Positions 5,366 through 22,400 of a stretch of DNA of 24,607 nt are shown piece after piece. The notes beneath the pieces are model-generated. The model was not told the origin of the DNA. It was given only the letters and a program-made list of their open reading frames with translations, and ran no database searches. Source of the stretch: a virus; IMG/VR virus record IMGVR_UViG_3300031646_000019, positions 1-24,607 of that record, one strand, 5' to 3'. The first letter of the stretch is position 1. Each line of letters begins with the position of its first letter. The position numbers and the translations under genes are program-made.

Positions 5366-6800
5366 AGACCTGCTTCACCTCATTAAGATAGAGGAGGAAC
5401 TGCTCAAGAGAAGGGAGAAGGACCTACTAGGTTCTATCTCTGCGAACGATAGGCAGCGTGACTTCATAAACGCAGACAGCAAGGAGACCATGCTCACTGG
5501 TGCTAACCAGGCGGGCAAGTCTACGGCTCTCATGATGAAGTTCACCTACCACATGACGGGTCTGTATCCTTCATGGTATACGGGCGTGCGCTTCGACAAG
5601 CCGATCCAGGCTGCGCTAGGAGGAGAGACTGCGCAATCAACACGTGACTTGTTAGTCAACCGTCTCATTGGCCCACCAGAAGACAGGGGTGCTGGCTACT
5701 TCCCAAAGGGATCATTTGATCCAGAAAAGGACGTCACCCGCATGACTGGCGGTGTGGCTAATCAGATCGACTACTTCAGGGTCAAGCACTTTGACGCTGA
5801 CGGTGACTTCGACGGATACAGCAAGGCCTATGTGTTTTCTTACTCTACGGGGTGGCGCAGACTCCAGGGCTACTCACTAGACTTGGTAGCGATTGACGAG
5901 GAACCTGAAATGATGGTCTACGAGGAACTGTCTGCACGTACGAATGCTACTGGTGGATACGTAGACATTGCAATGACTCCCCTGCGGGGTGAGACTGAAC
6001 TGTACTTAGTGTTCGAGGCTGCCACGGGCGATATCAAGCGACTGATCAACTACGACATAACTAAGGCTACGCACATGGCTGTGGAGCAGCGTAACCACTT
6101 GTTGAAGAAGTATGAGAACAACCCATTCGCAGAGGCACGTCTGTACGGAAGGCCTGTCGCTAGTCAGGGGTTGATTTACAATGTGCCGCACGAGGTGATT
6201 ACCACTGCGGACTTCCAGGTGGGCACCTACCACAAGCAGATCATAGGGATAGACCTTGCGCACACTACGGGTAAGTGGGCTGCTGTAAAGTTATCGAGCG
6301 ACCCGAACTCTGGCATTACCTACGTGGTTCAGGACTTCAAGTCTGAAAGGATGTCCGTCGCTGATTTTGCTAGTCGTTTGATAGGGATGGGTGGACGTGA
6401 GATCCCTGTGGCGTGGCCCCATGACGCAATGAGGGAGACCTCGTCTGGTACAGTTGTATCACAACTGAGGAAGTTGGGTGTCAATGTTCTTCCGGAGGCT
6501 GCTCATATGATAGACCCCATGACGGGGACTAAGACTCGTGCCTTAATGAGCGTAATAGAGAAGGCCTTGGACATGATGAATCAGGGCAACCTTTTATTCA
6601 TGTTACGTGGAACTAAGGAGATCCTGACAGAGATGCGGAGATATAGGCATAAAAGTGGGAAAATAGTTCCAAGGCAGGAAGATCATTGCATTGACTCCTT
6701 GCACAAGGCGGTTATGATGCTACACCTAGCGAAGCCAGGGAATGCGAGGGCGCAGATGCGATCCTTCAGGCTACCTGAGCAGGACTTCTTTGGAGGTTAG
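5355..6800 (+). CDS. terL: Terminase large subunit
   Basis: This 481-residue packaging motor has an N-terminal ATPase with Walker A TGANQAGKST at 48-57, Walker B LDLVAIDEEP at 175-184 (D181, catalytic E182) and a coupling motif MTPLRG at 207-212. The C-terminal RNase H-like nuclease shows IIGIDLAH at 296-303 (D300), WPHDA at 354-358 (D357) and EDHCIDSLHKA at 442-452, which cut concatemers. The ATG at 5355 overlaps the small subunit gene by 11 bases. Its GAGGGG (5335-5340) is 14 bases away, but a TAGGC-TTA-GCCTA hairpin at 5341-5353 lies between and may shorten the effective distance. The length fits podovirus terminases that lack long extensions. Confidence 0.95.
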   Translation: MENEDLLHLIKIEEELLKRREKDLLGSISANDRQRDFINADSKETMLTGANQAGKSTALMMKFTYHMTGLYPSWYTGVRFDKPIQAALGGETAQSTRDLLVNRLIGPPEDRGAGYFPKGSFDPEKDVTRMTGGVANQIDYFRVKHFDADGDFDGYSKAYVFSYSTGWRRLQGYSLDLVAIDEEPEMMVYEELSARTNATGGYVDIAMTPLRGETELYLVFEAATGDIKRLINYDITKATHMAVEQRNHLLKKYENNPFAEARLYGRPVASQGLIYNVPHEVITTADFQVGTYHKQIIGIDLAHTTGKWAAVKLSSDPNSGITYVVQDFKSERMSVADFASRLIGMGGREIPVAWPHDAMRETSSGTVVSQLRKLGVNVLPEAAHMIDPMTGTKTRALMSVIEKALDMMNQGNLLFMLRGTKEILTEMRRYRHKSGKIVPRQEDHCIDSLHKAVMMLHLAKPGNARAQMRSFRLPEQDFFGG

Positions 6801-6801
6801 A

Positions 6802-8400
6802 TTGACCGAAGTACAAGAACTGTTAGCCAGGTTGAGCACAATGAAGTCTAGTCGGGCGAACCACGAGAACGCTTGGCAGGACATATCGAACTATATGATG
6901 CCCTTTAGGGGCGACATAACAACCAAGAAGGCTAAGGGCTCGCAGAGGGTCCACCCGGTATTTGACTCTACTGCCATGATTGCCGCAGATCAGTTAGTCA
7001 ACTTCATGAAGGGTTCATTGCTACCACCGTCGCAGGACTGGTTGAGGCTTGTTCCCCCATACGACTTCACGCACGACGACGTTGCCAAGAAGACTTTAGA
7101 CATTACGGCTCAGCGAGTGCTCGCTCAACTGGCGGACAGTAACTTCTATAGCGAGGCTACGTCTGTGTTGAGGGATCTGATTGTTCTGGGCAACGGTACT
7201 CTAATGATCGAGGAGGACACGTTAAGTCCTAACTCCAACAACGGTATAACCTTCGAGTCCGTTCCTATAGGTCAGATGTGGTGGTCTCAGGGTAAGGGTG
7301 GTCGTGTCATAATGGTCGCCCGAAGGTACCAGATGCCTGCTATTGACGCAGCCCGTTTCTTCAAGGACCCAGGACCAGACGCATTGCAGAACCTTTCCCA
7401 GGGTAAGCAAATGGAACTTGTTGATTACTATCAGTTTGTGTTCGAGAACGAGAACCGGGTGTTTGGTGGCCTACCTGCAAAAACAACCAAGAAATATCGG
7501 AGTCTTTATGTCAGCGAGACGGGAGGCGGTCGTATACTTAAAGAGGAAGGCTATGACATTCCTCCATTCGTCGTGAGTAGGCTTCACCGTGTAGACGGCG
7601 AGGAGTACGGTCGTGGGCGTGGACACTTGGCCCGTGCGGACGCTAGAGGGCTAAGCGAACTAAGGAGACAAATACTTATTGCCGCAGGCAAGGATCTCAA
7701 CCCGCCCCTAATGGTTGAAGACGACAGTATGGTTGACATGGACCTGACCAGCGGGGGTATGCTAGTAACACGACCACCCGTAAAGATATCCCCGAACTAC
7801 CTCCGCAGTGGCGCTGACTACGCTGCTGCCGACAAGATCGCCAGAGACGACCGTGACCAGATCCGACAAGCGTTCCTCTCCGACGTTCTTGCTGAACCTG
7901 CCAGTCAGCCCCGTTCTGCTGAAGAGTCCAGGCAGCGGCAGGCTAGGAGCCTTCAGAGACTTGCGTCCGCCGCCGATATCATTAACGACGAGTTCCTTGG
8001 TCCAACAGTCCAGTCTGTGATTGGTATCATGGCGAGGAATGGTAAACTCCCCGAAGCGGAGGCTATGGCTTCTGCGGTAGGAGGCGAGGTTCAGGCGGTG
8101 GTGCGATTTGCTTCCCCCTTCTTCTCTGCACAGAAGCAGGAATCGGCTGGACGGGTTATGTCGTTCTTGGAGCGCAGGCTTGCATTGTTCCAGGCGACAC
8201 AGGATCCTGCATATATCGAGGACATTGACCCGGACCGCTTACGCTCCTTTGATAGTAGGATGTCGGACGTTCCGGCGGAAATCTTTAGGAGTCAAGAGGA
8301 GATAGACGAGATCAGGCAGGCACGTGCTGAACGTTCTGCCCAAGAGCGTATGCAGCAAATGGAACAGGACTCACCGCAACAAGGGGGACAGGGTGGATAA
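6802..8400 (+). CDS. Portal protein (podovirus head-tail connector)
   Basis: This 532-residue protein matches the size of T7 gp8 (536) and its layout. The start region has SSRANHENAWQDISNYMMP and FDSTAMIAADQLVNFMKGSL (around residues 16-72), which parallel the T7-type connector opening, followed by PPSQDWLRL. The rest is a helical-beta core, and the C-terminus is glutamine/glycine-rich (QQMEQDSPQQGGQGG). Twelve copies would form the packaging channel and docking site for the tail adaptor. I chose a TTG start at 6802 because GGAGG at 6792-6796 lies five bases upstream; the in-frame ATG at 6742 has no proper site and lies inside terL. The end overlaps the next gene by eight bases. Confidence 0.92.
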   Translation: MTEVQELLARLSTMKSSRANHENAWQDISNYMMPFRGDITTKKAKGSQRVHPVFDSTAMIAADQLVNFMKGSLLPPSQDWLRLVPPYDFTHDDVAKKTLDITAQRVLAQLADSNFYSEATSVLRDLIVLGNGTLMIEEDTLSPNSNNGITFESVPIGQMWWSQGKGGRVIMVARRYQMPAIDAARFFKDPGPDALQNLSQGKQMELVDYYQFVFENENRVFGGLPAKTTKKYRSLYVSETGGGRILKEEGYDIPPFVVSRLHRVDGEEYGRGRGHLARADARGLSELRRQILIAAGKDLNPPLMVEDDSMVDMDLTSGGMLVTRPPVKISPNYLRSGADYAAADKIARDDRDQIRQAFLSDVLAEPASQPRSAEESRQRQARSLQRLASAADIINDEFLGPTVQSVIGIMARNGKLPEAEAMASAVGGEVQAVVRFASPFFSAQKQESAGRVMSFLERRLALFQATQDPAYIEDIDPDRLRSFDSRMSDVPAEIFRSQEEIDEIRQARAERSAQERMQQMEQDSPQQGGQGG

Positions 8401-10481: not shown

Positions 10482-11849
10482 ATGGCATACGTAGGATTTG
10501 GCACTGGTTCTTGGCCCGGCACCACAGGTGACGGCGTCGCTAACAGTGCATCTAATAACTACACACAGTTGTTCAAGACCGCTTATGCGGACATGATTCG
10601 ACTGAAGGCGCAGACCTTACATTCTGCTTTGTCTGATACCTGCATGCCCGAGGTACTTCGTGGTGACCCCCTGATGCTTGACTCGTACAAGTCTGTAACC
10701 CTGACGACCCGTGACCGTGGTCAGCAGTACGGTGCCGACAGTACTGGCGGAGACAAGGCGTACAAGGAAACCGACAACGAGCGTAGAGAACTTCGTCCTG
10801 AGTTCCATGAGTTCGCTGAACTCTTTGATCCTCGTGACGAGCGTGCTCTCATGCGTGCGATCCAGCCTGACGGTGCTTATGTTGCCAACGTGGCAGCGGC
10901 GTTCAACCGCAAGAAGGACGAGGTTATCCTCAATGCCTTCAGGGGTCCCGTGACTGTCAATGGTACGGCTTTCGCAGACAGCACCACCGTTGCGTTGCAT
11001 GCTTTCCGCAAGGACTGCGATCTCGCTTACGGTAGCACGACTGCGATTGCTGGCGGACTGGCAGCGGGTTCTTCTACCGACCTGCTTGGTGGACCCGCCG
11101 ATGCGAGTGCTCCCGATGATAACTCAGCGTCTGGCGACAACATCGGCGGAACTATTGGTGCAGCCGCAGCCGCTGTCCTTGCAGCAGAGACTTACACTGG
11201 CGGAGTGTTACCCGCCTTCTCCCTTACACAGGAGTTTGGTTGTCAGCAGATCGTCGAGGGTGACATTCAGACCATCGGCAGTACTGGCACTGGTGCAGGA
11301 ATCGTTGGTACTGATGCGGCACAAGGGCTTCACATCAAGAAGTTGTTGACTGCCCTCAATGTTCTTCAGACGAACGGTGCTTGGCAGGGACAGCGCATTT
11401 ACGTTGTGCTTCACCCGGATCAGGTAAATGACTTGATGCACGAAGTCCAGTACACCAGTTCAGACTACAACGCACTTCAGCCGCTCATGTACGGGCAACC
11501 TGTTCCGTTCCTGGGTTGTGAGTTCCGTGTCTGCAATCAGATTCCGCAAGAGACTGTTCTCTCCGGCGTTGGTGCTTCGGCTCTCCAGGATCCAGCCTCA
11601 GCCAATAACGCATACGCAACTCTGTCCTTCGAGACGGCCACGAACGGTCGTTACGTTTGGATGTACACGGAGGATGCGAACATCTTCGGCATGGGTGACG
11701 AAATGACGGTTCGATTCGACGAGATCCCAGACCGTGGGTACTCCTTGCAGTGTTACCACGACTTCAGTCTTGGTGCCGTTCGCATGGACCCCAAGAAGAT
11801 GGTTGCGATCCCCTGTCACAAGGGAACTGCCGCAGTAGCCATCGCCTAG
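10482..11849 (+). CDS. Major capsid protein
   Basis: This 455-residue protein follows the scaffold gene and has its own promoter and the best-spaced GGAGGA site in the operon, as expected for the most abundant virion protein. Features typical of podovirus capsid proteins with the HK97 fold include a helical N-terminal arm (YTQLFKTAYADMIRLKAQ), a spine-helix region (ALMRAIQPDGAYVANVAAAFNRKKDEVIL) and the late segment RIYVVLHPDQVNDLM. Residues about 190-240 are a glycine/alanine/serine/aspartate-rich insertion that could be a flexible surface loop. The assignment rests on position, size and overall pattern. No frameshift signal for a longer form is evident at the end. Confidence 0.9.
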   Translation: MAYVGFGTGSWPGTTGDGVANSASNNYTQLFKTAYADMIRLKAQTLHSALSDTCMPEVLRGDPLMLDSYKSVTLTTRDRGQQYGADSTGGDKAYKETDNERRELRPEFHEFAELFDPRDERALMRAIQPDGAYVANVAAAFNRKKDEVILNAFRGPVTVNGTAFADSTTVALHAFRKDCDLAYGSTTAIAGGLAAGSSTDLLGGPADASAPDDNSASGDNIGGTIGAAAAAVLAAETYTGGVLPAFSLTQEFGCQQIVEGDIQTIGSTGTGAGIVGTDAAQGLHIKKLLTALNVLQTNGAWQGQRIYVVLHPDQVNDLMHEVQYTSSDYNALQPLMYGQPVPFLGCEFRVCNQIPQETVLSGVGASALQDPASANNAYATLSFETATNGRYVWMYTEDANIFGMGDEMTVRFDEIPDRGYSLQCYHDFSLGAVRMDPKKMVAIPCHKGTAAVAIA

Positions 11850-11856
11850 TTTGATT

Positions 11857-11868
11857 GAGGGGACCCTC
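11857..11868 (+). promoter_or_regulatory. Small hairpin over a ribosome binding site
   Basis: GAGG (11857-11860), the probable ribosome binding site of the next gene, can pair with CCTC (11865-11868) directly before its GTG. The stem is only four base pairs with a GGAC loop, so the effect would be mild. Confidence 0.25.
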
Positions 11869-12297
11869 GTGACAGGTAAGACACATTACTGGTCGCAAAA
11901 GTGCTTGTCACTGATCGGTGGTGCATCGGTCACGGGGGTCACTACGACATGGATTGCTCTTCTCACTGCGAACCCAACTGGGGACGGTGAGGCTGCAACG
12001 GATTGCCCGGGTCTAACCAGGACCCAGGTATACACGAGTGGCTCCACTGCTCCGTACTGGTCGGCGGTGAAGTCAGAGGGTGACAAGAAGTTAATCGACA
12101 ATGTAGGCACTGTGTCTTGGTTTGCCGGAACAGCCGAGAGTGGTTGGACGCAAGAGATCATTGTGGGCATAGGTATTTACGATGCTGCTACAGTTGGCAA
12201 TCTGCTATACTGGGAAGCACTTGACGCAAACATAACAATAGCGCCATTGGAGGAGTTAGCCTTCGGTACTGGCGCAATAAAAGTGAGGGAAGACTAA
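11869..12297 (+). CDS. Minor virion protein, Gp80-like fold
   Basis: This 142-residue protein has the pattern TTWIALLTANPTGDGEA early, then VGTVSWFAG, GWTQEIIVGIGIYDA and GNLLYWEAL late. It resembles a family of short phage structural proteins (Gp80-like, often labelled tail fibre or decoration protein) with LFTxxPT...W...GIYDA...GNLLYWG. The similarity is from memory and the role is not fixed; a head or head-tail decoration protein is the most likely. GTG at 11869 is chosen with GAGGGG at 11857-11862, six bases upstream. The following gene seems to be a diverged relative. It lies one gene after the capsid, with 19 bases between. Confidence 0.7.
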   Translation: MTGKTHYWSQKCLSLIGGASVTGVTTTWIALLTANPTGDGEAATDCPGLTRTQVYTSGSTAPYWSAVKSEGDKKLIDNVGTVSWFAGTAESGWTQEIIVGIGIYDAATVGNLLYWEALDANITIAPLEELAFGTGAIKVRED

Positions 12298-12298
12298 T

Positions 12299-12808
12299 AT
12301 GGGACTAAGTAACTTAGGCGAGCAGGTTTCACTGAACAGACTGTTCTCTGCGGACCAAACCCCAACAGCAAGTACGGTACAGGAGGATATGGGTCCAATC
12401 GTGGCGTCCCCAAATACTGTAAAATACTTCATTCACTTGCATGCCGCCACGGCTACACCAGCGACCGCCCCAACCGAGTCCGACATGGGGACTACCTATA
12501 CAGGGAGCGCCAACTCTCCTGGCGTGGTGTACGCAGCACAACAACTCACCTTCGATCCGTTGACTGAGGCTACTGGTACTGCCACTAACGTTATTTCCCT
12601 AACCAGCACCGTGACGTTCACGACTTCCGCCGCATCCGACTGGCCTGTTATCGCCTACTACTCGATCCATGCATGTGCAACGGCAGCAGCAGCGGCCACC
12701 GCCAATATGATCTTTTACGGCACCTTCGCCACTCCTGCTACTGTGGGCCTGGGAGATACTGTGCAGATCGTTTCCGGTGGTACTGGACTTGCCATAGCCG
12801 CAGAGTAG
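12299..12808 (+). CDS. Second small virion protein related to the preceding one
   Basis: This 169-residue protein has TVKYFIHLHAATATP, SPGVVYAAQQLTFDP, TSAASDWPVIAYYSIHA and MIFYGTFATPATVGLGD. These segments follow the same order as the short Gp80-like virion family (early strand, aromatic-W region, GIYDA-like segment, GNLLYWG-like segment), so it is probably a diverged relative of its neighbour; that is inference from pattern only. It is rich in alanine and threonine and nearly free of lysine and arginine. The ATG at 12299 has GAGGGA eight bases upstream and starts one base after the previous stop. Its stop codon touches the anti-ribosome-binding-site arm upstream of the next gene. Confidence 0.68.
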   Translation: MGLSNLGEQVSLNRLFSADQTPTASTVQEDMGPIVASPNTVKYFIHLHAATATPATAPTESDMGTTYTGSANSPGVVYAAQQLTFDPLTEATGTATNVISLTSTVTFTTSAASDWPVIAYYSIHACATAAAAATANMIFYGTFATPATVGLGDTVQIVSGGTGLAIAAE

Positions 12809-12834
12809 ACCTCTTGTGGTTGCATAAGGAGGTC
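12808..12834 (+). promoter_or_regulatory. Hairpin hiding the ribosome binding site of the repeat-adaptor gene
   Basis: GACCTC (12808-12813) is a perfect complement of GAGGTC (12829-12834), extended by TT with AA around one bulged G. The 3' arm contains AAGGAGG (12826-12832), the ribosome binding site for the GTG at 12840. The 5' arm starts at the last base of the upstream stop codon, so a terminating ribosome would open the hairpin. This would couple translation of the two genes. Confidence 0.5.
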
Positions 12835-12839
12835 GAGGG

Positions 12840-15665
12840 GTGACTGCACATTTAGGATCCAGGGTATGTGACAGCAGTCGGGCAAACATATCAGGTGTGG
12901 GTCTCGATGCTGACTATACGCTAGTGTCGGGAGATGCTGGCCTGTTCATACTGGCATCCTCTGTAGAGGACGGTGGTTCCGAGTTCCGTGCAGGACAGTC
13001 GCACTCTCTCCAATGGAGGGTGCTTCCTAGCGGAACCTTCGCAACCTTAGCCTTGACGAACGCTACTGGCCCGCACCTTGACAACGCCACTGGAACCATA
13101 ACCAACGGAACCAATGTGGCGACCGGGAACCGAAGAGGCACCCAGGCCGATGGACCTAATAGCGATGGGTTCGTTGCTAGTGGTAAAGAGTTCACAAGTT
13201 CGACCTCGCAAAACTACGGGGCTGAAGTCAAGGACGCACAGACTGAAGCCCAATGGGCGATAGACATGGGGAACTGCCCAGCCAGCACGGCCTATCAGTT
13301 CCAATCTTCATGGGGCTCAAAGAACGACGGAACCGCTACGTTCACCCTCATGACGGTTACAACTGCCGCTGCGGGTGGTACCACACATAGCCTTGCCCAT
13401 ACGACGGGTTCGATAGCGACCACTCATACTTCCTCCGTTACTGTTACATCCACACACAGCCTATCACACACGGCAGGCGCAATAACGACCAGCACTTCCG
13501 CCAGTTCAATAACCGCCGTTCAAACGCACGACCTTGTCCACACGGCAGGCTCGATAGACCTCACTCAAGACACTGCCGATATCACCTCCAAGACTATCCA
13601 TAATCTTTCATCCACGGCCACCAACCGGTACCTAATGGCGGACCATCCGCTCCCTGCCGGGGGTTTCTACTCTCATATCACAATCACCTCGGGTGCTACC
13701 ACACACAGCCTAGCGCACACGACGGGTTCAATAGCGCCCACTCACGACTCCACGGTGAAGTTGACACGCAGCCTTACGCATACGACGGATACGATAGCGA
13801 CCACCCACGACTCCGCAGTGAAGTTGACACGCAGTCTTACGCATACGGCAGGCTCAATAGGAATCACTCAAGGCACCGCCGATATCACTGCCGACCAAAC
13901 CCATGAACTAGCGCACACGGCAGGCTCGATAGACCTCACGCAAGACACTGCTGATATCACTGCCGCCCGCATACACAGCCTTGCACACACGGCAGGTTCA
14001 ATAGCGACCACTCATGACTCCACGTTGAAGTTGACACACAGTCTTACGCATACGGCAGGTTCGATAGCGCCTACCCACACTGCTGATATAACAGCAGTCC
14101 AAACGCACGACCTTGCACACACCGCTGACTCGATAGACCTCACTCAAGACACTGCTGCAATAACTGCCGACCAAACGCACGACTTGGTCCATACGGCCGA
14201 CTCGATAGACCTCACTCAAGACACTGCCGATATCACCTCGACTGGTTCAACAATACGCAGCCTTGCCCACACTACGGGTTCAGTAGAGCCTACTCAGGAT
14301 ACTGCTGCACTCACGGTCACCAGTACGCATAACCTTGCACACACGGCTGGCACGATAACGCCCACCCACGACTCCACGTTGAAGTTGACACGAAGCCTAG
14401 TACACACGACGGACTCGATAGCGCCTACTCATGACTCAACGTTGAAGTTGACGCATAACCTTGCCGTCCGCTTTATATTCGGCGTACCATTCGACTCCGC
14501 CATAAGTATCGGCACAGTTCCGACCGCTGCACTCACGGTCACTAGCACGCACAACCTTGTCCATACTGTCGGCTCGATACGCATCACTCAAAACACTGCC
14601 GCTGCCCTTGTACTTACAATACACCGACTCGCACATACGGCGGGGTTGATAGCGCCTACTCAGACTGCCGCACTCACGGTCACTAGCACGCACAATCTTG
14701 CCCATACGGCTGGCACGATACAGGTCACTCAGGATACTGCTGCTCTCACGGTCACTAGCACTCACAACCTCTCGGCCACCGACTCAATCGAACTGACCCA
14801 TGACGCTGCTGTGGTGTTGATTCACAGCCTTGTACATACGACGGATTCGCTCACGGTGACAGACGACAGTAGAGTTCAAGCGAAGGTGGTTATTAGCCTT
14901 CAGGGAACCGGGACAGTATCAGACCCCACTGACGTATCTCGTATAGAGTCGGCAACATACCTTATATCTGTTACCATAGACGGGGTTGGAGATCTAACCC
15001 ATAACCTGTTGAAGAGGAGCGAGATAATGTCACTAGAGGAAATATGGAATACCGGGCTGACCCAACTAGGTGTTGGTACAGTGGATTCCGCAGTATCAGA
15101 TCAGACGGCGCAGGCAATCCTATTGAGGAAGGTCTGGGACAACTTTAGAAAACAGTTCGTGAGCGACCACGCATGGAATGGCTGCAAGACTACCGCCGCC
15201 CTCACTGCCCTGGCGAACTCGGACTTCAAGGACACCACCCGGTGGGGGAACGTCTTCTCACTGCCGTCAGACTACCTCCGGGCGCTCACTGTGAATGGGC
15301 ACCCGAATCAGGCTGGCAACGCAGAGCGGATCATGTGGGAGATCGAGATCGTATCTGACAGTTCAGGTGCCAAGTCTCGCTGTATCTGCACGAACCAGAG
15401 TACGGTCAAGTTGGAGTATGTCTTCGATCCAGGAGACGCTAACATAGGAACCTTCCTTGCTCCCGCCATGAAGCACGCACTGGGGCTGGCCTTTGCTGCC
15501 TTCGTTGCCCCGAACTTTGGCAAGAGTGCGAACGACATAACCCTGATTGAGCAGAAGGCACGAGAGGCCCTACTCAAGGCACGTGGTATTGACGGTCAAG
15601 AGTCCTCTGGGATCTTCTTCGGCCCGTCCGAACTGGTTGAGTCAAGATACAGGAGTAGTAGTTAA
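12840..15665 (+). CDS. Repeat-fibre/tail-adaptor fusion protein
   Basis: This 941-residue protein joins three parts in one frame. Residues 1-175 form a beta-rich domain (SVEDGGSEFRAGQSHSLQWR, then AEAQWAIDM-like segments) that recalls phage virion sandwich domains. Residues 181-684 are about 21 repeats of 21-24 residues with consensus THxLAHTAGSIxxTQDTA. After a linker (685-729), residues 730-941 are a complete tail adaptor similar to T7 gp11 (196 residues), with IWNTGLTQLGVGTVDSA, KVWDNFRKQFVSDHAWN and a helical ALLKARGIDGQES end. Adaptors form a twelve-fold ring between portal and nozzle, so the repeat part would radiate outward as fibres; this is inference. The GTG at 12840 has a perfect AAGGAGG that is hidden in a hairpin. 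An internal start may also make the adaptor alone. Confidence 0.85.
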   Translation: MTAHLGSRVCDSSRANISGVGLDADYTLVSGDAGLFILASSVEDGGSEFRAGQSHSLQWRVLPSGTFATLALTNATGPHLDNATGTITNGTNVATGNRRGTQADGPNSDGFVASGKEFTSSTSQNYGAEVKDAQTEAQWAIDMGNCPASTAYQFQSSWGSKNDGTATFTLMTVTTAAAGGTTHSLAHTTGSIATTHTSSVTVTSTHSLSHTAGAITTSTSASSITAVQTHDLVHTAGSIDLTQDTADITSKTIHNLSSTATNRYLMADHPLPAGGFYSHITITSGATTHSLAHTTGSIAPTHDSTVKLTRSLTHTTDTIATTHDSAVKLTRSLTHTAGSIGITQGTADITADQTHELAHTAGSIDLTQDTADITAARIHSLAHTAGSIATTHDSTLKLTHSLTHTAGSIAPTHTADITAVQTHDLAHTADSIDLTQDTAAITADQTHDLVHTADSIDLTQDTADITSTGSTIRSLAHTTGSVEPTQDTAALTVTSTHNLAHTAGTITPTHDSTLKLTRSLVHTTDSIAPTHDSTLKLTHNLAVRFIFGVPFDSAISIGTVPTAALTVTSTHNLVHTVGSIRITQNTAAALVLTIHRLAHTAGLIAPTQTAALTVTSTHNLAHTAGTIQVTQDTAALTVTSTHNLSATDSIELTHDAAVVLIHSLVHTTDSLTVTDDSRVQAKVVISLQGTGTVSDPTDVSRIESATYLISVTIDGVGDLTHNLLKRSEIMSLEEIWNTGLTQLGVGTVDSAVSDQTAQAILLRKVWDNFRKQFVSDHAWNGCKTTAALTALANSDFKDTTRWGNVFSLPSDYLRALTVNGHPNQAGNAERIMWEIEIVSDSSGAKSRCICTNQSTVKLEYVFDPGDANIGTFLAPAMKHALGLAFAAFVAPNFGKSANDITLIEQKAREALLKARGIDGQESSGIFFGPSELVESRYRSSS
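13380..14891 (+). repeat. Coding tandem repeats, 63-72 bp, about 21 copies
   Basis: The array encodes units of two alternating kinds: about 24 residues ending TQDTAxIT with a short spacer, and about 21 residues ending THDSTLKLT. Two units are degenerate (near 13600-13690 and 14460-14530). Several copies are almost identical as DNA: the segment encoding SIDLTQDTA recurs near 13550, 13925, 14130 and 14200. This suggests recent copying or recombination rather than only protein-level selection. Confidence 0.9.
15027..15665 (+). CDS. Tail adaptor (tail tubular protein A) from internal start
   Basis: This nested, in-frame frame encodes the last 212 residues of the fusion, beginning MSLEEIWNTGLTQLG, which is exactly where a free-standing T7 gp11-like adaptor would begin. 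GAGGAG at 15014-15019 lies seven bases before the ATG, a better-than-average site for this phage. The product would assemble in a twelve-fold ring under the portal and bind the nozzle protein encoded next. If both starts are used, the ring could mix bare adaptors with adaptors carrying the repeat fibre. Alternatively the site is a remnant from a time when the genes were separate. The stop overlaps the nozzle gene as TAATG. Confidence 0.6.
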   Translation: MSLEEIWNTGLTQLGVGTVDSAVSDQTAQAILLRKVWDNFRKQFVSDHAWNGCKTTAALTALANSDFKDTTRWGNVFSLPSDYLRALTVNGHPNQAGNAERIMWEIEIVSDSSGAKSRCICTNQSTVKLEYVFDPGDANIGTFLAPAMKHALGLAFAAFVAPNFGKSANDITLIEQKAREALLKARGIDGQESSGIFFGPSELVESRYRSSS

Positions 15666-18600
15666 TGGTATGGGTTCCCCAGACGAGTTTCAGGTATGGT
15701 GAGATCAGTCCACGAATGGACGGTCCCTCTGACCCAAAAATCTATGACGCCTCTTGCCGTAAGGTTGAGGGTGCTATCGTGTCGTCGAACGGAACCATTG
15801 AGAAACGAAAGGGAACCTCTTACCGTGGTGAAACTTCGTTCTCTACAACTGAGACGAACTTTACCTCTTCTGCCGTGAAGTTGATACCCTTCAAGTCTGG
15901 CACCGACACCTATGTCCTGGTCTTTGAGGTCATGTCTCAACCTAACTCAGCCTACCCATTCACTAACGCAGACGGGAACATTAACTTCCCCACGCTGACA
16001 TGGGGTGTTATACGTGTGATCAAGGACGACGTTTTTTACACGTCGAATGGGTCTTCCACGTATACGGGTACACAGGTATGGGCGGAGCAATCTGTTTGCA
16101 ACCTACCGTTTAGAACGCAGTCGCCTGCTAACTTGCATCATGACGTTATAGATACAGACTTCCGTCCACCGGGTTCTGACTTATCGTTTTCAAAGATGTT
16201 TGGATGGCACCATTTTACGGCCAAGCAACTACCAGAGGTTAACTACTTCCAGCATGACGACTCCCTGGTAATATGCCACCAAGCAAAGCCGCCAATGGAA
16301 GTGTTTGTAGATACTGATGGGTATCTAGATACACGACAATACCTCATGGAAACTAGGTCTCCAGAGGTTGATCGTCGGGGGCCTCGATTCTCAATGACGG
16401 CAACTCAAAAGGGCGCTACCGCCAACGAGGATTATACGGTAGATACGACAATGAACTGGTTTGAAGACGGAGACATAGGGGCCATATATCGACTAGGATC
16501 TTGTTTGTCCAAACAATCTACGGTGACGTCTGCAAGTCTTGAGAGTCAGGTGCCAACGTCACTTGGAGAACATTCTGACGACCGTGGTGGGTATTTCGCA
16601 ATGGTTACCGAGGTAGTGAATAACAGACAAGCGATAATGACGTCCATCACTGATCTCAATGTCGGCGGACGTGAATATATCGCTTACATATCAGATCCAA
16701 GTGACTGGGACGGGCCGTGGGTGAGCGATAGAGCACTGCCCCCGACAAGTAATCCTTATAGTAGCCAGGCTCGCAACTATGGGCACACACTGCCGGGCCG
16801 AAGACTCATAAGGTACAACCATACCACCACAATAACCAGTGCCAACACAGGTACGTTTTTTGAAGACTGCGCTGCGTCTGAAATAACAATACAGCCGAAC
16901 TACAACGCAGATTACGGCGGTAATGCAACGGGCCCAGGTACAACTATCGGCACAGACACAACGATTCAGCCTACTGACATTGGGTGTATCATTATGAATC
17001 GCCAAGACAACAGGAATGGCGTAACCCCTTCTTGGCTTTTCTCTGCCCCCGTCCTGGACGTGTCTTGTTTTGCATTGATCACAGGGACTTTTACAGTAGG
17101 AGCGGACGTACTGGGGTCTGGCCTACAGCAAACTATGTACAGGGCGCAAATACTTAATGGAGAGCAAGCGCCCACTTCGACCGCTCCAGGGTGGAGGCCA
17201 AGTGTAAGTGGATATCAGGACCCAAACACGGCGTTGTCTACTACCACCGCAGACAGCGCTCGTCTCCCAAGGATGGGTAATACTCAAAATGCAGACGGAT
17301 CCGAAGTACGTGCCCCAATGGGCGGGCACCTCTACCGTTTAAGGAACAAACGGAAGTCTATGGAGGCAATACCCCCGATTGCGATACAAAGAGTATCCGC
17401 AGGGACGCCCCTATCGAACTCCCCCGACTTAACATATTATAAATCAATCGCAGCGGGAGAGACCGTGACTATCGTTGGTGGAGATATCCCAGCCGCACAT
17501 AAAGTCTCTGAGTCCTCGACACCATTTGACTACTCCGTCCGAGGAGAGACTGAAGTCCTTCCAACGCCTCCCGTCTTTCCGCCCTTCGGATATTTGGATG
17601 CTGTACCAACCGCTGGTACCCTGCATGTTAATGGCGGCGTCTTCTCCCATGTGAGACACGACAACGCCTATGGCGTCGGTCCTCTGGTAGAAGACACATG
17701 GCTTGTAATAAAGCCACCCTCCTCCACGGCAATCACAGGTAAGTACGGTCTAGGATGGTCTGAAGCAGTCGGGTTCCCCAGTTGCGGTAGTAGCCACCAG
17801 GGGCGAGTGATCTTCGCTGGATTTGAACATCAAAAGAGAGTGGTTGTCGGTAGCGTGTTAGACGATCCTAGAGACTTCTCAATAGGAGGTGCCTCTTCCG
17901 ACGGCTTCCACTTCCTAGTGAACGACTTGCGTGGCAGCAGGGTACGCTGGCTGTCCTCTGGTGTAGATCTGCTCATTGGGACGACCACAGGTGAGTTCTC
18001 CATTGGAGGCTCTCCACTCTCTGCTCTGTCAGTTGGAGTTGATCGACACTCAGCCTATGGGTCTGCCTCGATCAGGCCAGTGATCATTGGAAATCACCTG
18101 CTATTCGTGCAAAAGGATCGGAAGACGATACGTGCGTTGAAGTTCAACTTCGCTACTCAGAGATACCAAAGCACAAACGCCACGCAGAACCATGCACACT
18201 TGTTTAAGGACGTTGTGATTGAGGAAATGGTTGTTTGGGAAGGCGAAGAGGACCCGGTTCTCCTGTTGAGGCTATCCAACGGTGAGGTTCTATCGTCTCG
18301 TGTTAATGAGATCGAAGGATTCATTGGGTGGTCTCGAATGAAACTCCCACTTTGTTCCTCCATTTGCCAGTCACGCCACCCAATACCTTCGGGTGAGTCA
18401 ACTTCGTACACTGCTGCCGACTCGTTCTATGTGGCCTACGACACCAGTAGTGCAAACAAGTACGCCCTGTCTAAGTACGACGATACCCTGTACCTCGACG
18501 AGGCAGAGATAGCCACGGTGACGGGGACGTTTGCTACTTCTAACTACGCAGCCACGCTTGGATCCACTCGTTTCAATGGGTTGGACGTGTCGGTTGTAGT

Positions 18601-19024
18601 GGACGGCATATATCGGGGTGAGCATACTGTCACTGGTAGCAGCGTTTCCCTGGTTAATATCACCAGCGCAGAGGCGACTTCAGTAATCGTTGGCAAGAAG
18701 ATCAACATGGTCATGCATCCAAGAGTTCCTGAAGTCATATCGGGGACTCGTGTTACTTCCACCCTTGGAAGAATGAAGAACTATTCGTCGGTCGTAGTCA
18801 ATGTCAATGGGAGCAAGGGCGTCAAGGTCAACGGATTGGAAATCGACGGCATACCGCTGGACCTAACTAGCAACCAAATCACTCCACACACGGAACACAC
18901 AGGATGGTTGGAGTGCGTCGCTACGGGTCTGTACGGAATACAGCCGTTGCTTGAGATAAGTTCTGACAGGCCGTACCCAGTGGAGATATGCGGATATACT
19001 GTTGACATGAAGGTGGAGGGCTAA
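15665..19024 (+). CDS. Tail nozzle protein (tail tubular protein B)
   Basis: This 1119-residue protein starts with FRYGEISPRMDG and KVEGAIVSSNGTIEKRKGT (about residues 9-50), the typical opening of gp12-like nozzle proteins (pattern FxxGExSPxxxG ... GxxxRxGT). A later stretch, GRVIFAGFEHQKRVVVGS then FHFLVNDLRGSRVRWL and LLIGTTTGEFSIGG, matches the beta-propeller part of these proteins. It would form the six-fold tube below the adaptor and take part in cell contact. It is longer than T7 gp12 (794), so inserted or extra receptor-facing domains are likely, especially in the middle. The ATG overlaps the preceding stop as TAATG, and CAGGAG lies nine bases upstream. Confidence 0.9.
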   Translation: MVWVPQTSFRYGEISPRMDGPSDPKIYDASCRKVEGAIVSSNGTIEKRKGTSYRGETSFSTTETNFTSSAVKLIPFKSGTDTYVLVFEVMSQPNSAYPFTNADGNINFPTLTWGVIRVIKDDVFYTSNGSSTYTGTQVWAEQSVCNLPFRTQSPANLHHDVIDTDFRPPGSDLSFSKMFGWHHFTAKQLPEVNYFQHDDSLVICHQAKPPMEVFVDTDGYLDTRQYLMETRSPEVDRRGPRFSMTATQKGATANEDYTVDTTMNWFEDGDIGAIYRLGSCLSKQSTVTSASLESQVPTSLGEHSDDRGGYFAMVTEVVNNRQAIMTSITDLNVGGREYIAYISDPSDWDGPWVSDRALPPTSNPYSSQARNYGHTLPGRRLIRYNHTTTITSANTGTFFEDCAASEITIQPNYNADYGGNATGPGTTIGTDTTIQPTDIGCIIMNRQDNRNGVTPSWLFSAPVLDVSCFALITGTFTVGADVLGSGLQQTMYRAQILNGEQAPTSTAPGWRPSVSGYQDPNTALSTTTADSARLPRMGNTQNADGSEVRAPMGGHLYRLRNKRKSMEAIPPIAIQRVSAGTPLSNSPDLTYYKSIAAGETVTIVGGDIPAAHKVSESSTPFDYSVRGETEVLPTPPVFPPFGYLDAVPTAGTLHVNGGVFSHVRHDNAYGVGPLVEDTWLVIKPPSSTAITGKYGLGWSEAVGFPSCGSSHQGRVIFAGFEHQKRVVVGSVLDDPRDFSIGGASSDGFHFLVNDLRGSRVRWLSSGVDLLIGTTTGEFSIGGSPLSALSVGVDRHSAYGSASIRPVIIGNHLLFVQKDRKTIRALKFNFATQRYQSTNATQNHAHLFKDVVIEEMVVWEGEEDPVLLLRLSNGEVLSSRVNEIEGFIGWSRMKLPLCSSICQSRHPIPSGESTSYTAADSFYVAYDTSSANKYALSKYDDTLYLDEAEIATVTGTFATSNYAATLGSTRFNGLDVSVVVDGIYRGEHTVTGSSVSLVNITSAEATSVIVGKKINMVMHPRVPEVISGTRVTSTLGRMKNYSSVVVNVNGSKGVKVNGLEIDGIPLDLTSNQITPHTEHTGWLECVATGLYGIQPLLEISSDRPYPVEICGYTVDMKVEG

Positions 19025-19455
19025 TGTCCGAAGAGGGAGAATACGCCTTACAGGGAGCGCAGTCGGGGGCGGCTCTGGGTACCATGCTTTTACCCGGCAT
19101 TGGAACAGCCGCAGGCTTTATCCTTGGCGGCATCTTTGGTGGACTATCGGGTGCCAAGGCACATGAGAAGAAGAGGGCGATTCGACGGGAAAATGACCGA
19201 CTCAAATCAGTGCAACTCTTCAGTCATGCCTCTGACGAAGGTCGCCTGTCTAGATTCAAGGCGGCAAGCCAGAGAGCGTTGATCGGTGGGGCGGGGTTGT
19301 CCACGAGGTCTGGTTCAGCGTCGGCGGTGGAGTCCGACATAATGGCTGAGTCTGTCCTTCAGCAAGAATCCATACTTGCAGGTTTGCCAAAGTCATATCG
19401 TCGAAAGAACCCTAACTTCGCAACAAACGGTAGTTCGTTTATAAGGCTGGCATAA
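19024..19455 (+). CDS. Small internal virion protein with glycine-rich membrane segment
   Basis: This 143-residue protein has a glycine-zipper-like hydrophobic segment, about residues 11-44 (AALGTMLLPGIGTAAGFILG and GGIFGGLSGA), then a basic helical stretch (AHEKKRAIRRENDRLK), and a polar C-terminus. Proteins of this sort in podoviruses, encoded between the nozzle and the large internal proteins, are ejected with DNA and help form the channel through the cell envelope; the analogy is to T7 gp14 and rests on position and the membrane segment. The ATG overlaps the previous stop as TAATG, with GGAGGG close upstream. It also ends in a TAATG junction with the next gene. Confidence 0.75.
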   Translation: MSEEGEYALQGAQSGAALGTMLLPGIGTAAGFILGGIFGGLSGAKAHEKKRAIRRENDRLKSVQLFSHASDEGRLSRFKAASQRALIGGAGLSTRSGSASAVESDIMAESVLQQESILAGLPKSYRRKNPNFATNGSSFIRLA

Positions 19456-22400
19456 TGGTAGTAGTAAACATTTCTGGTACTGGGCCACGTCCCCGTAAAC
19501 TACAGGTCGATACGTCCAAACTAGAAGACCTACAAGAGGACCTTGCGGATCACGAGTCCACATGGAACTCTATCATGGGCGCAACCAAACTAGCAGCCGG
19601 TTTAATAGAGGGTGCGAGCAATGAGAAGATAAAAGAAGTTGAGACCCGTGTGAAGGCTGGGTTGTCTGCTGTAAGCAACGCCGTCACTGACAGCGCAGTG
19701 GCCGCTGGTAGTGAAGCAGGTCTGGGCGATGGCACGTTTGCGGACGTTGTCTTCAAGGGCGAGGAGTTCCAAAAGCAACGGGACGCCTTGTTCGAGGGCG
19801 ATTTCAAGTGGTATGAGGGTGCCGCAAAGAAAGCCACTGAGGCGGCGAAACTTTCCCTGAAAAACAGCACTAAGACTGAATGGGAAGCAACCGCAAAACT
19901 TGCCTTCGATAACGGACGGCTTGCACGTGGCATAAAAGTTGAGTTAGCAGACGACGATACCCGTTCCGACATTGTAGACAAACTGTGGGTAGGTATCGAA
20001 GGCTTCAAGGCTGACCTACAGACAGGGGCGGGCAAGGAACGTGCCGGGCCTATGCTGACTGAGACGATTGGCCGACACGTAACGGAAATGATAAGAAACC
20101 CATCGGAACTGGTCGAGGATCCAACCCAACTAGAGAGGCTCTTAGATCAGTGGAAAGCAAGCGGCGCACAAGACGCAGACGTAGACCTTGCGAGACGTGG
20201 TGCAGTACAAAACTTCATGAAGCATGCTGCAACGCCCGCCGGGCAAGCGCAAATGACCGCCGTTCTTTCCGACCTAATCAACCCTTCAGACGTGCTAACT
20301 ACGGAAAACTACGGGAAAGAACTAGAGGCCTTAGGGATACAGCCGGAAGCGTTGTCTAGCCTGAAGAACAGTGCTAATGGACAGTACATTGTAAATATGA
20401 TCGACGGCGGTATGCCCATTGCCGAAGCCATGAACGCCTTGGAGTCCCATGATTACTTCCCTGGCGCTGCCGAACTAGCACCCTTCATTAACTTGCCGCA
20501 AGTGTCACTCGACACCCCTGCCGAGGCTCTTCTTGACGTGCTCGGTAAGTATAGCAGTGACGGCGTACTCTGGATCTCCAACACGGAGTGGTCAAGGGTC
20601 GGTCACTGGTTCTCTCTGCAAACAAATGCTGACGCTTGGAACAGGTTGAGCCAGAAGCCTACGATAATGACGGTATCTGAAGGTGGAGTAGCATCCTTAT
20701 GGGGTGGCACTTCGGCAGGCGGCGGTGGTAGCAGCAGTGGTGGAAGTGCCCAGGCCGATCCTGCTTTCTCGTCAGGATACTACGGGACTGGAAGTAGATC
20801 AGATTACGATCCAGACGCTGTCCTTCACGGCGCCAATCTAAGGGCTGCACTAGGGGATGCTTTGGAGCCTCTTGGTATTGACTTAGGGAAACTTAATCCC
20901 GGCAGGAGACAACACCTACTCGATCAGGTCTTGAATGGTGGCCTGGGCTTCACGCTGGACTTATCCAAGAACATGGAGGAGACCTCAGCAGCGCTGGTAC
21001 TCGGCATTGATCAGTCGGGACTCAAGGCTACCAAGGGCGGCGGTGGGTTCTACCTTGATCCATTGAACGTCAACGACCTTCCCCAAGAGGACCTACTTAA
21101 GATCTTTGGGGCACAAGCAGAGGACGGAGAAGTGTTCGCTGCTGTCACCACCGTGAATGGGCAGAAGACCTATGAGTTGCGTAGATCGGGCGGAGTCAGA
21201 GGAGAGGCTTCTATGCCCCTGTCGGTCCCGACTATAGGCCTTGAGAAGTTGTCCAAAATAAGGGAGCAACGACCAGCCAAAATGATGGAGCAACGACCAG
21301 CCGATGAGGGCCACTCTGGTGAGAGTTACCGGGCGATTAAAGCACATATTGGTGCAGTAGAACGCCTAGTCCAACCACCCACACCAGAGGATCCAGACGC
21401 ACCAGCACCCACCGTCACGCCGGAGGATCCAGACGCACCAGCACCCACCGTCACGCCAGAGGATAAGGCAGCAGACCTAGAGTTGCAAGAGGGCATAGAA
21501 CAAGGCAAGGCCATGTTCTTCACAGATATGGCAGACATTGGGTTTGCTAGTTCGTACATGGCGTACGGTGCGTACAAGTGGAACAAGGCGGCGGAGAATG
21601 TAGCGACGAGAATGCTTGGCCCTAAGGGGAAGTTCATGGAACAAGCCGGGATGTCATTCCAAAGCCAACCACCCAAGGGCTTGAGGGGTGCTGACGGAAG
21701 GTTCGTAACTAGTTACAGCGGGCGTTCACAGAAACTGCTTGATAACATCTATAAGGTACTTGATGTGCCAATGGGTGAGCGGATAAAGATCGACGAGTAC
21801 TTATCTCAGCCATCAAAACAAAAGAAGCGGTTCGAGAAGGAACTGAAACGATTGCACAAGAAGTACGGCGAGGAGGTGATCCGCAAGGCCATTAAGAAAG
21901 AGGCGTGGGATAAGGGTGCCAAGGTTGCGGCCAGCAGGCTCGGACGTAACTTAAAGAAGTTGACTGGTGGGGCAGCGGGTTTGGTCCTGCTTGCCGGTGA
22001 CTTGTTGGCGTTCGGATTGTCTGACGAGGAGTCTTACGAGGCACAGGACGAGATATTTGCGCCCTTTGAGGAGGGGTTTGACAAGATCAACCCATACGGC
22101 ATATTTGACCTGGGAGCGTCATTCGACTACACCCCTGCACCGGATAATGCCGGGTACATAGGCACAGCACTCCACTATGTAGGCCAGTGGGGAGTGGGCA
22201 TGCTTCGTCACATGTCAACAGGAGAGGGCGCTGCTGGTACGGTTAGGTCTGTATTCCGTAGCGCTACTAACATCCTTGGCGAGCGTGAAGTAGCATTTGG
22301 CTTCTCAGTATTCGAGGCGGCTAGTCAACAAGGCACAGCAGTCTTGAATGGTCTTGCTAATCTAAACCGTCCCGCTGACCACGAAGCCGCTTGGCAAGCA

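Follow-up and report, generated by a model that had tools for sequence, protein, structure and literature searches.

Tail adaptors of short-tailed phages are known as free proteins, so what is made at a locus where the adaptor is the end of a far longer frame? Such a frame lies in a 24,607-nucleotide (nt) stretch of viral DNA (IMG/VR record IMGVR_UViG_3300031646_000019, positions 1 to 24,607; hereafter the window), where an open reading frame (ORF) of 941 amino acids (aa) runs from 12840 to 15665 on the + strand, beginning with GTG, ending with TAA and containing no stop between a block of short repeats and the adaptor. It is preceded at 12826-12832 by the ribosome-binding site AAGGAGG, the longest Shine-Dalgarno match among the 11 gene starts of the window that were scored. 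From its N-terminus, the long product consists of a head domain (aa 1-180, 12840-13379; head type A), predicted to be beta-rich from alignments and AlphaFold2 (AF2), 21 repeats (13380 to approximately 14888), a conserved linker, ISVTIDGVGDLTHNLLKRSEI, joining the repeats to the adaptor (14964-15026), and the adaptor domain itself (15027-15665). The last codons of the linker include AGGAG (15015-15019), 7 nt before an in-frame ATG at 15027 from which a free 212-aa adaptor is predicted. We find that the fusion is real and conserved and is no error, and we think, from its sequence features, that one nested gene yields both an armed and a plain adaptor, the two products being predicted.

The first-pass annotation of this DNA had placed an adaptor domain at the C-terminus of a continuous 941-aa frame, and profile comparisons bear this out. 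The family phrog_394 (tail protein) matches aa 731-937 (E 2.8e-23) over positions 3-189 of its 190, and the 211-aa C-terminal piece alone matches it at E 2.7e-24. With a profile built from eight adaptors, the solved connector chains 8ck1_E (E 1.1e-24) and 9efk_T (12 chains, E 1.1e-17) are recovered. The adaptor part of an AF2 model, of low confidence, has the order helices, four strands, helices. The nozzle gene (phrog_376) begins at 15665, on the adaptor stop, such that the adaptor gene directly precedes it. By profile and by the two solved connector chains, the C-terminal part is a member of the podophage tail adaptor family. While the free adaptors in six phage records measure 186-193 aa, the window frame adds 729 N-terminal residues; this adaptor is not free-standing in the sense of having its own start and stop and no large extension, since the open frame is 941 aa.

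The repeat protein runs into the adaptor in one frame in all 18 related viral contigs that we found, whose adaptors are 49-100% identical to that of the window. The frames of two of them (L106 and L117) run off the contig upstream, and those closed at both ends are 830-1187 aa long from stop to stop. Since 10 different junction sequences occur among the 18 contigs, they are not copies of one assembly; they are mutually related and not independent. A stop or frameshift between 14890 and 15027 is thus very unlikely, given that the junction is open in 18/18 contigs. The set comes from four adaptor scans of viral contigs, the last two of which returned an identical set of 18; these scans use short patterns, by which relatives may be missed, and they showed no relative between 49% and 29% adaptor identity. 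A scan of a genome contig collection gave 64 pattern stretches, none of them a relative.

Beyond this group, the adaptor appears to be encoded on its own. None of 75 distant adaptors (24-29% identity) among the matches listed is fused, with the longest stretch from preceding stop to match being 55 aa and one stretch being open at the contig end, and all six annotated phage records viewed, of 15 matching the adaptor, have a free adaptor gene. A tree was built from 32 free adaptors (27 of the 75 listed distant contigs and 5 of the 6 phage records) and 14 of the 18 fused contigs; in it, one branch with support 100/99 splits fused from free adaptors, whereas shuffles average 12.2 changes. This branch is 2.19 long, the program cautions that it is a meeting point of long branches, and the root is a midpoint only. 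Because of the long branch, the midpoint root and the empty interval between 49% and 29% identity, the origin of the fusion is not visible.

The linker indicates that the open frame is also read through. It is ISVTIDGVGDLTHNLLKRSEI in the window and AKIDGKGSVVSNLLTNGEL in L024 (L105), the most distant member, and across a seven-row alignment IDG, the following G and NLL do not vary. All 10/10 representatives retain the two glycines of IDGxG, each glycine with four codons, while the Asp is kept in 9/10 and the Asn in 7/10. Since the amino acids of the linker are conserved above synonymous changes, selection acts on the protein and the frame is translated into the adaptor. Judged by this codon pattern, ribosomes reach the adaptor in the long frame.

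The same region contains the signals of a second start. The ATG at 15027 lines up with codon 1 of free adaptor genes, and this ancestral first codon is a start codon in 18/18 contigs (12 ATG, 6 GTG), with AGGAG seven bases before it in 17 of the 18. We examined the 58 codon columns in which nine or more of ten representatives agree on an amino acid with a degeneracy of four-fold or higher. Only one of these columns consists of a single codon, namely the Arg AGG within AGGAG (9/9); the Ser beside it is always AGT or AGC, and the surrounding Leu, Lys, Glu and Ile codons vary. The gene thus has the two parts of a nested in-frame pair, a conserved internal ribosome-binding site and an in-frame start, and from these we argue that the free 212-aa adaptor is made too. 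The proposal of the first-pass annotation that all twelve ring subunits carry an arm is accordingly not supported as stated, since the conserved internal site and start argue for the plain form as well.

The part upstream of the linker has a different history from the adaptor, as seen in segment comparisons of 16 chosen pairs. Between L115 and L116, adaptor identity is 97% and repeat identity 91%, and the heads give no match; between the window and L115 the values are 96% and 30%, again with no match of the heads. L108 and L105 share heads that are 90% identical, with adaptors at 49% and repeats at 25%, and the L126 head is 97% identical to that of the window and is followed by a different repeat. 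From these comparisons we count three head types (A, B and C), and by the same comparisons the heads are exchanged independently of the adaptor. When heads B and C were used to scan viral contigs, only group members were returned, apart from L139, a contig that ends in the head. The estimated length of the repeat block is 403-750 aa in 13 aligned members, in which the repeat sequence is poorly conserved. Module exchange seems to have breakpoints on either side of the adaptor (the nozzle side is described below). With its variable part N-terminal and its conserved part C-terminal, the protein does not have the layout of a tail fibre, and by its sequence it is neither a free-standing adaptor nor an ordinary tail fibre.

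We consider it an even call whether two in-frame products with a common adaptor domain both enter one mixed ring with host-contact arms. By this mechanism, initiation at 12840 would produce an armed adaptor in which an exchangeable N-terminal head is borne on about 21 beta-type repeats as a stalk and is connected by the linker to an adaptor anchored to the portal, while initiation at 15027, the old adaptor start with its own ribosome-binding site, would produce the plain 212-aa adaptor. Armed and plain adaptors, made from one message, would co-assemble beneath the portal into one ring, presumably twelve-membered; how many arms project outward at the head-tail junction would be set by the relative use of the two starts, and the arms would present the heads to the host. 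Each of the 10 records compared (three of them 39.6-41.5 kb long) has a single adaptor match, and so, to the extent that these records show, no gene other than the fused one supplies the ring. This single match, the open frame and its conservation, the selection on the linker, the conserved internal site and start and the swapping of heads are directly supported; that both products are made, that the ring is mixed, that the arms project outward and that they bind a receptor we infer.

A host-contact (adsorption) arm is plausible because the heads swap independently and no tail fibre was recognised among the late genes scanned in a sibling contig. The suggestion in the first-pass annotation of a receptor-binding device or collar whisker thus stands as a plausible host-contact arm, with receptor binding and a fibre at the neck still a matter of inference. 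We put forward tentatively, and on the doubtful side, the further idea that the start ratio sets the number of covalent arms and that the N-terminal tip, in place of separate tail fibres, is the exchangeable module chiefly responsible for host recognition.

Several observations weigh against the nested armed-and-plain arrangement. The linker is not uniform: Ser replaces the Asn of NLL in L118-L122, ITG replaces IDG in L121 and L122, and L119-L122 carry an in-frame, Arg/Gly-rich insertion of about 13 aa (e.g. NRGGVLSQRRN) just upstream of the conserved internal start (at about 6001-6040 in L119, 4766-4826 in L120 and 4200-4257 in L121, just before the adaptor start). L024 (L105) has Asn-Gly in place of Arg-Ser and no AGGAG at the usual place, although GGAG nevertheless stands 5 nt before its ATG. 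Two other codon columns are nearly single-codon (9/10), the representatives are related, so that the invariant AGG does not represent nine independent events, and all four GTG representatives fall within one five-row tree group that also holds the GTG row L106. A Shine-Dalgarno-like score of at least 5 is found at 16 of the 347 internal in-frame start codons of the window, at least one of which, at 6802, resembles a true gene start. Because these 16 sites score as high, the internal site alone proves little, and the case therefore rests on conservation.

Structure is a further point on this side. AF2 models of the full-length protein and of the head gave no confident arm structure: the whole long protein has a mean predicted local distance difference test (pLDDT) score of 36.8, which is low confidence, and the head, modelled as strands only, has a mean pLDDT of 52 and a predicted template modelling (pTM) score of 0.59, which is unreliable. 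Foldseek found no convincing structural match for the head (best E 0.017 in the PDB and 0.13 among viral structures). The best hit in a VIA search had a Z of 7.8, possibly just a common arrangement, and the searches with the head model show generic beta-sandwich similarity only. In T7, the portion of the structural report available to us has the adaptor helix bundle lining the channel and the N-terminus not placed (PMC6702177).

The codon data bear on the alternative that the long protein alone is made, all twelve ring subunits are armed and the internal AGGAG and ATG are remnants. An open and conserved frame in 18/18 contigs fits this alternative, and the AGGAG bases double as the Arg-Ser codons of a conserved linker. 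However, the Arg AGG is the one column in 58 confined to a single codon, and the start position varies solely between ATG and GTG across 18 contigs; we regard long-only synthesis as unlikely. The conserved internal start could also mean that the ring consists mainly of internally initiated adaptor and that the upstream part is a virion protein of its own, released by proteolysis or abortive synthesis, with the lost stop merely tolerated. The upstream modules evolve on their own, and the linker of L119-L122 tolerates an insertion, as this would predict, but the linker is protein-conserved up to the junction even though the adaptors are only about 50% identical, and a useless fusion would be expected to have gone out of frame in one or more of the 18 contigs. 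These two points make a separate upstream protein decidedly improbable in our judgement.

The arm might instead be real but serve structure or assembly, as a capsid-vertex clamp, a scaffold or a stabilising collar, rather than host contact. A repeat block whose sequence is poorly conserved and whose length nonetheless stays within 403-750 aa in the 13 aligned members is in keeping with such a role, and the collar of phage Milano, in the part of the source at hand, has no fibres and no known function (PMC10491603). Yet swaps of entire heads between lineages are what one would expect to see in host-range modules, and the genes scanned include no further recognised fibre gene, so a purely structural arm strikes us as very unlikely. 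Assembly is the last concern. Repeats are hard to assemble, and six head-domain contigs beyond the 18 (L124, L126, L128, L131, L132 and L133) all end inside the head or the repeats, which speaks for an assembly or sequencing artefact that joined two genes. The junction is, however, open in 18/18 other contigs, among which 10 distinct junction sequences and several kinds of repeat block occur, and we give an artefact practically no credence. The ends of the six contigs are probably due to repeats breaking the assembly, and such fusions may for that reason be under-represented in viral collections.

The repeats themselves, put at about 21 in the first-pass annotation, number 21 in a motif count (aa 183-662), with a spacing of 20-35 aa and mostly 21 or 24 aa; at the DNA level they form arrays of 63- or 72-nt units, and a 204-nt period that is also reported is the sum of units. 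Their description as histidine-rich holds for the window, where His makes up 8.8% of the repeat block, and fails for the family, with 0.3-0.5% in L113, L108 and L105. Since the His content spans 0.3-8.8% across the 13 aligned members, we rejected His richness as a functional family trait (metal binding). A CVNH match on the window repeats was set aside as below the family cut-off, and PHROG matches without known function fall on the repeats of L004, L005, L007 and L024. The fused proteins of the window and five relatives have no fibre family match in Pfam or PHROGs, and tblastn against phage records, with the low-complexity filter on, gave no match for the repeats or for any of the three head types.

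The fused gene lies in the + strand structural module of an uncultured short-tailed phage, which also includes the terminase large subunit (phrog_2), a 143-aa protein and a 1622-aa protein. The gene at 6742-8400, whose start is uncertain, matches phrog_332 (E 2.9e-89), which is labelled 'head-tail adaptor' in the category connector; from its size and place we read it as the portal. The major capsid protein follows at 10482-11849 (PF19821, phrog_3437), and between it and the fusion lie two gp80-like genes, the first at 11869-12297 (PF23140, podophage GP4 fibre I family; E 6.6e-17 for the ORF 11851-12297), with its start placed by choice at the GTG behind GAGGGG, and the second at 12299-12808 (PF23140, E 7.2e-6, just below the cut-off at 26.8 of 27 bits). 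The fused protein has no PF23140 match; only these two upstream ORFs do. Gp80-like matches occur in 7/9 relatives, and the two without are contigs that start within 0.7 kb of the fusion frame. The best phmmer match of a window gp80-like protein to solved chains has E 0.43 (8jou_a). Downstream, the nozzle (tail tubular B-like, 1119 aa, 15665-19024; phrog_376 'tail protein', E 2e-67) overlaps the adaptor stop. The nozzles of L003 (from 8636) and L005 (from 8633) likewise start on the adaptor stop and are 11-67% identical to the window nozzle per 100 residues over residues 1-900, being most variable in the middle and far more diverged than the adaptors of these contigs, which are 95-99% identical to that of the window; the L003 contig ends within the nozzle gene. 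The gp80-like genes and the variable middle of the nozzle are candidates for further appendages. A 36-nt tandem repeat in 2.4 copies lies at 21380-21464 within the 1622-aa late protein and encodes a Pro/Asp/Ala/Thr-rich peptide. The window contains no tRNAs, and Rfam gave nothing at gathering score.

Other candidates for host binding were sought in a sibling contig (L001) of 40.5 kb. Although classed linear, this contig aligns with the window from its base 203 onwards (window position 19444), reaches its other end at window position 19769 and spans the whole circle, because its two ends overlap (84% over 522 nt). Among the late ORFs beyond its nozzle that encode 150 aa or more, none matched a tail fibre or tailspike family, in a scan that passed over shorter ORFs, the greater part of the replication region and a 0.8-kb stretch of the terminase region. 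These late ORFs encode a 1610-aa protein (searched with Pfam only, none above cut-off), a 1683-aa internal virion protein that includes an endolysin domain (phrog_342) and three smaller products that lack a significant family match. At L136:10647-13284, where T7-like phages would carry their tail fibre gene, the internal virion proteins are followed by three small proteins with no significant family, two of which are visibly Lys/Arg-rich.

In the openly licensed papers searched, we noticed no account of an adaptor that is joined to an arm or that occurs in two forms. The lambda C/Nu3 genes are nested in frame and yield long and short products with a common C-terminus through an internal start, and it is this internal start giving a C-terminus common to both products that they have in common with the gene proposed here. 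To our knowledge, a nested in-frame start has not been described for a tail adaptor, nor do we know of any podophage with covalent fibres whose dose is set by translation initiation. If the proposed mechanism is true, these phages attach fibres covalently and set the dose of an appendage by translation initiation, the N-terminus rather than the C-terminus is the variable tip, and host-range determinants should be sought in that N-terminal tip in a phage group without a recognised tail fibre gene. A mixed ring would also put the tolerance of the adaptor ring for heterogeneity directly to the test.

Compared with the podophage tail adaptor (T7 gp11, P22 gp4, 'tubeA'; phrog_394), the window protein is alike in its C-terminal 212 aa and in its gene position between capsid and nozzle and differs in its 729 extra N-terminal residues. 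It resembles the T7 gp17-type tail fibre in its proposed role, as an elongated and modular protein with an exchangeable tip. Whereas tail fibres usually keep an N-terminal anchor and exchange the C-terminal tip, as stated in the sections of the phiGT1 report that we drew on (PMC10386132), here the C-terminal anchor would be the ring protein itself and the variable tip N-terminal, a mirror image. The available portions of the structural reports have appendages leaving the tail at the adaptor ring in both T7 (PMC6702177) and SU10 (PMC9509320), where the adaptors carry a fibre dock and the T7 helix bundle forms a channel; dock and bundle neither prove nor exclude outward projection. The docked fibres of T7 and SU10 are separate proteins in these accounts, in contrast with the covalent arm predicted for the window, which also has the two gp80-like genes upstream. 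For fibre I of podophage GP4, a place at the adaptor ring is indicated by the Pfam name and a reference title only. The collar proteins T4 wac and XM1 gp40, described as proteins in their own right in the excerpted source (PMC10491603), are alike in the proposed neck location only and are set apart by description, not by sequence.

The nearest idea found in print is the dual tubeA arrangement of Sulfitobacter phage phiGT1 and Bcep22-like phages, for which the consulted sections of the report describe two kinds of adaptor per virion and discuss two rings or a heterodimer ring (PMC10386132). There, two divergent genes supply the two kinds, whereas in the window, by our reading, one gene with two starts would do so. 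Taken together, these comparisons make the fusion a variant within the adaptor family, with a testable and unusual proposed mechanism.

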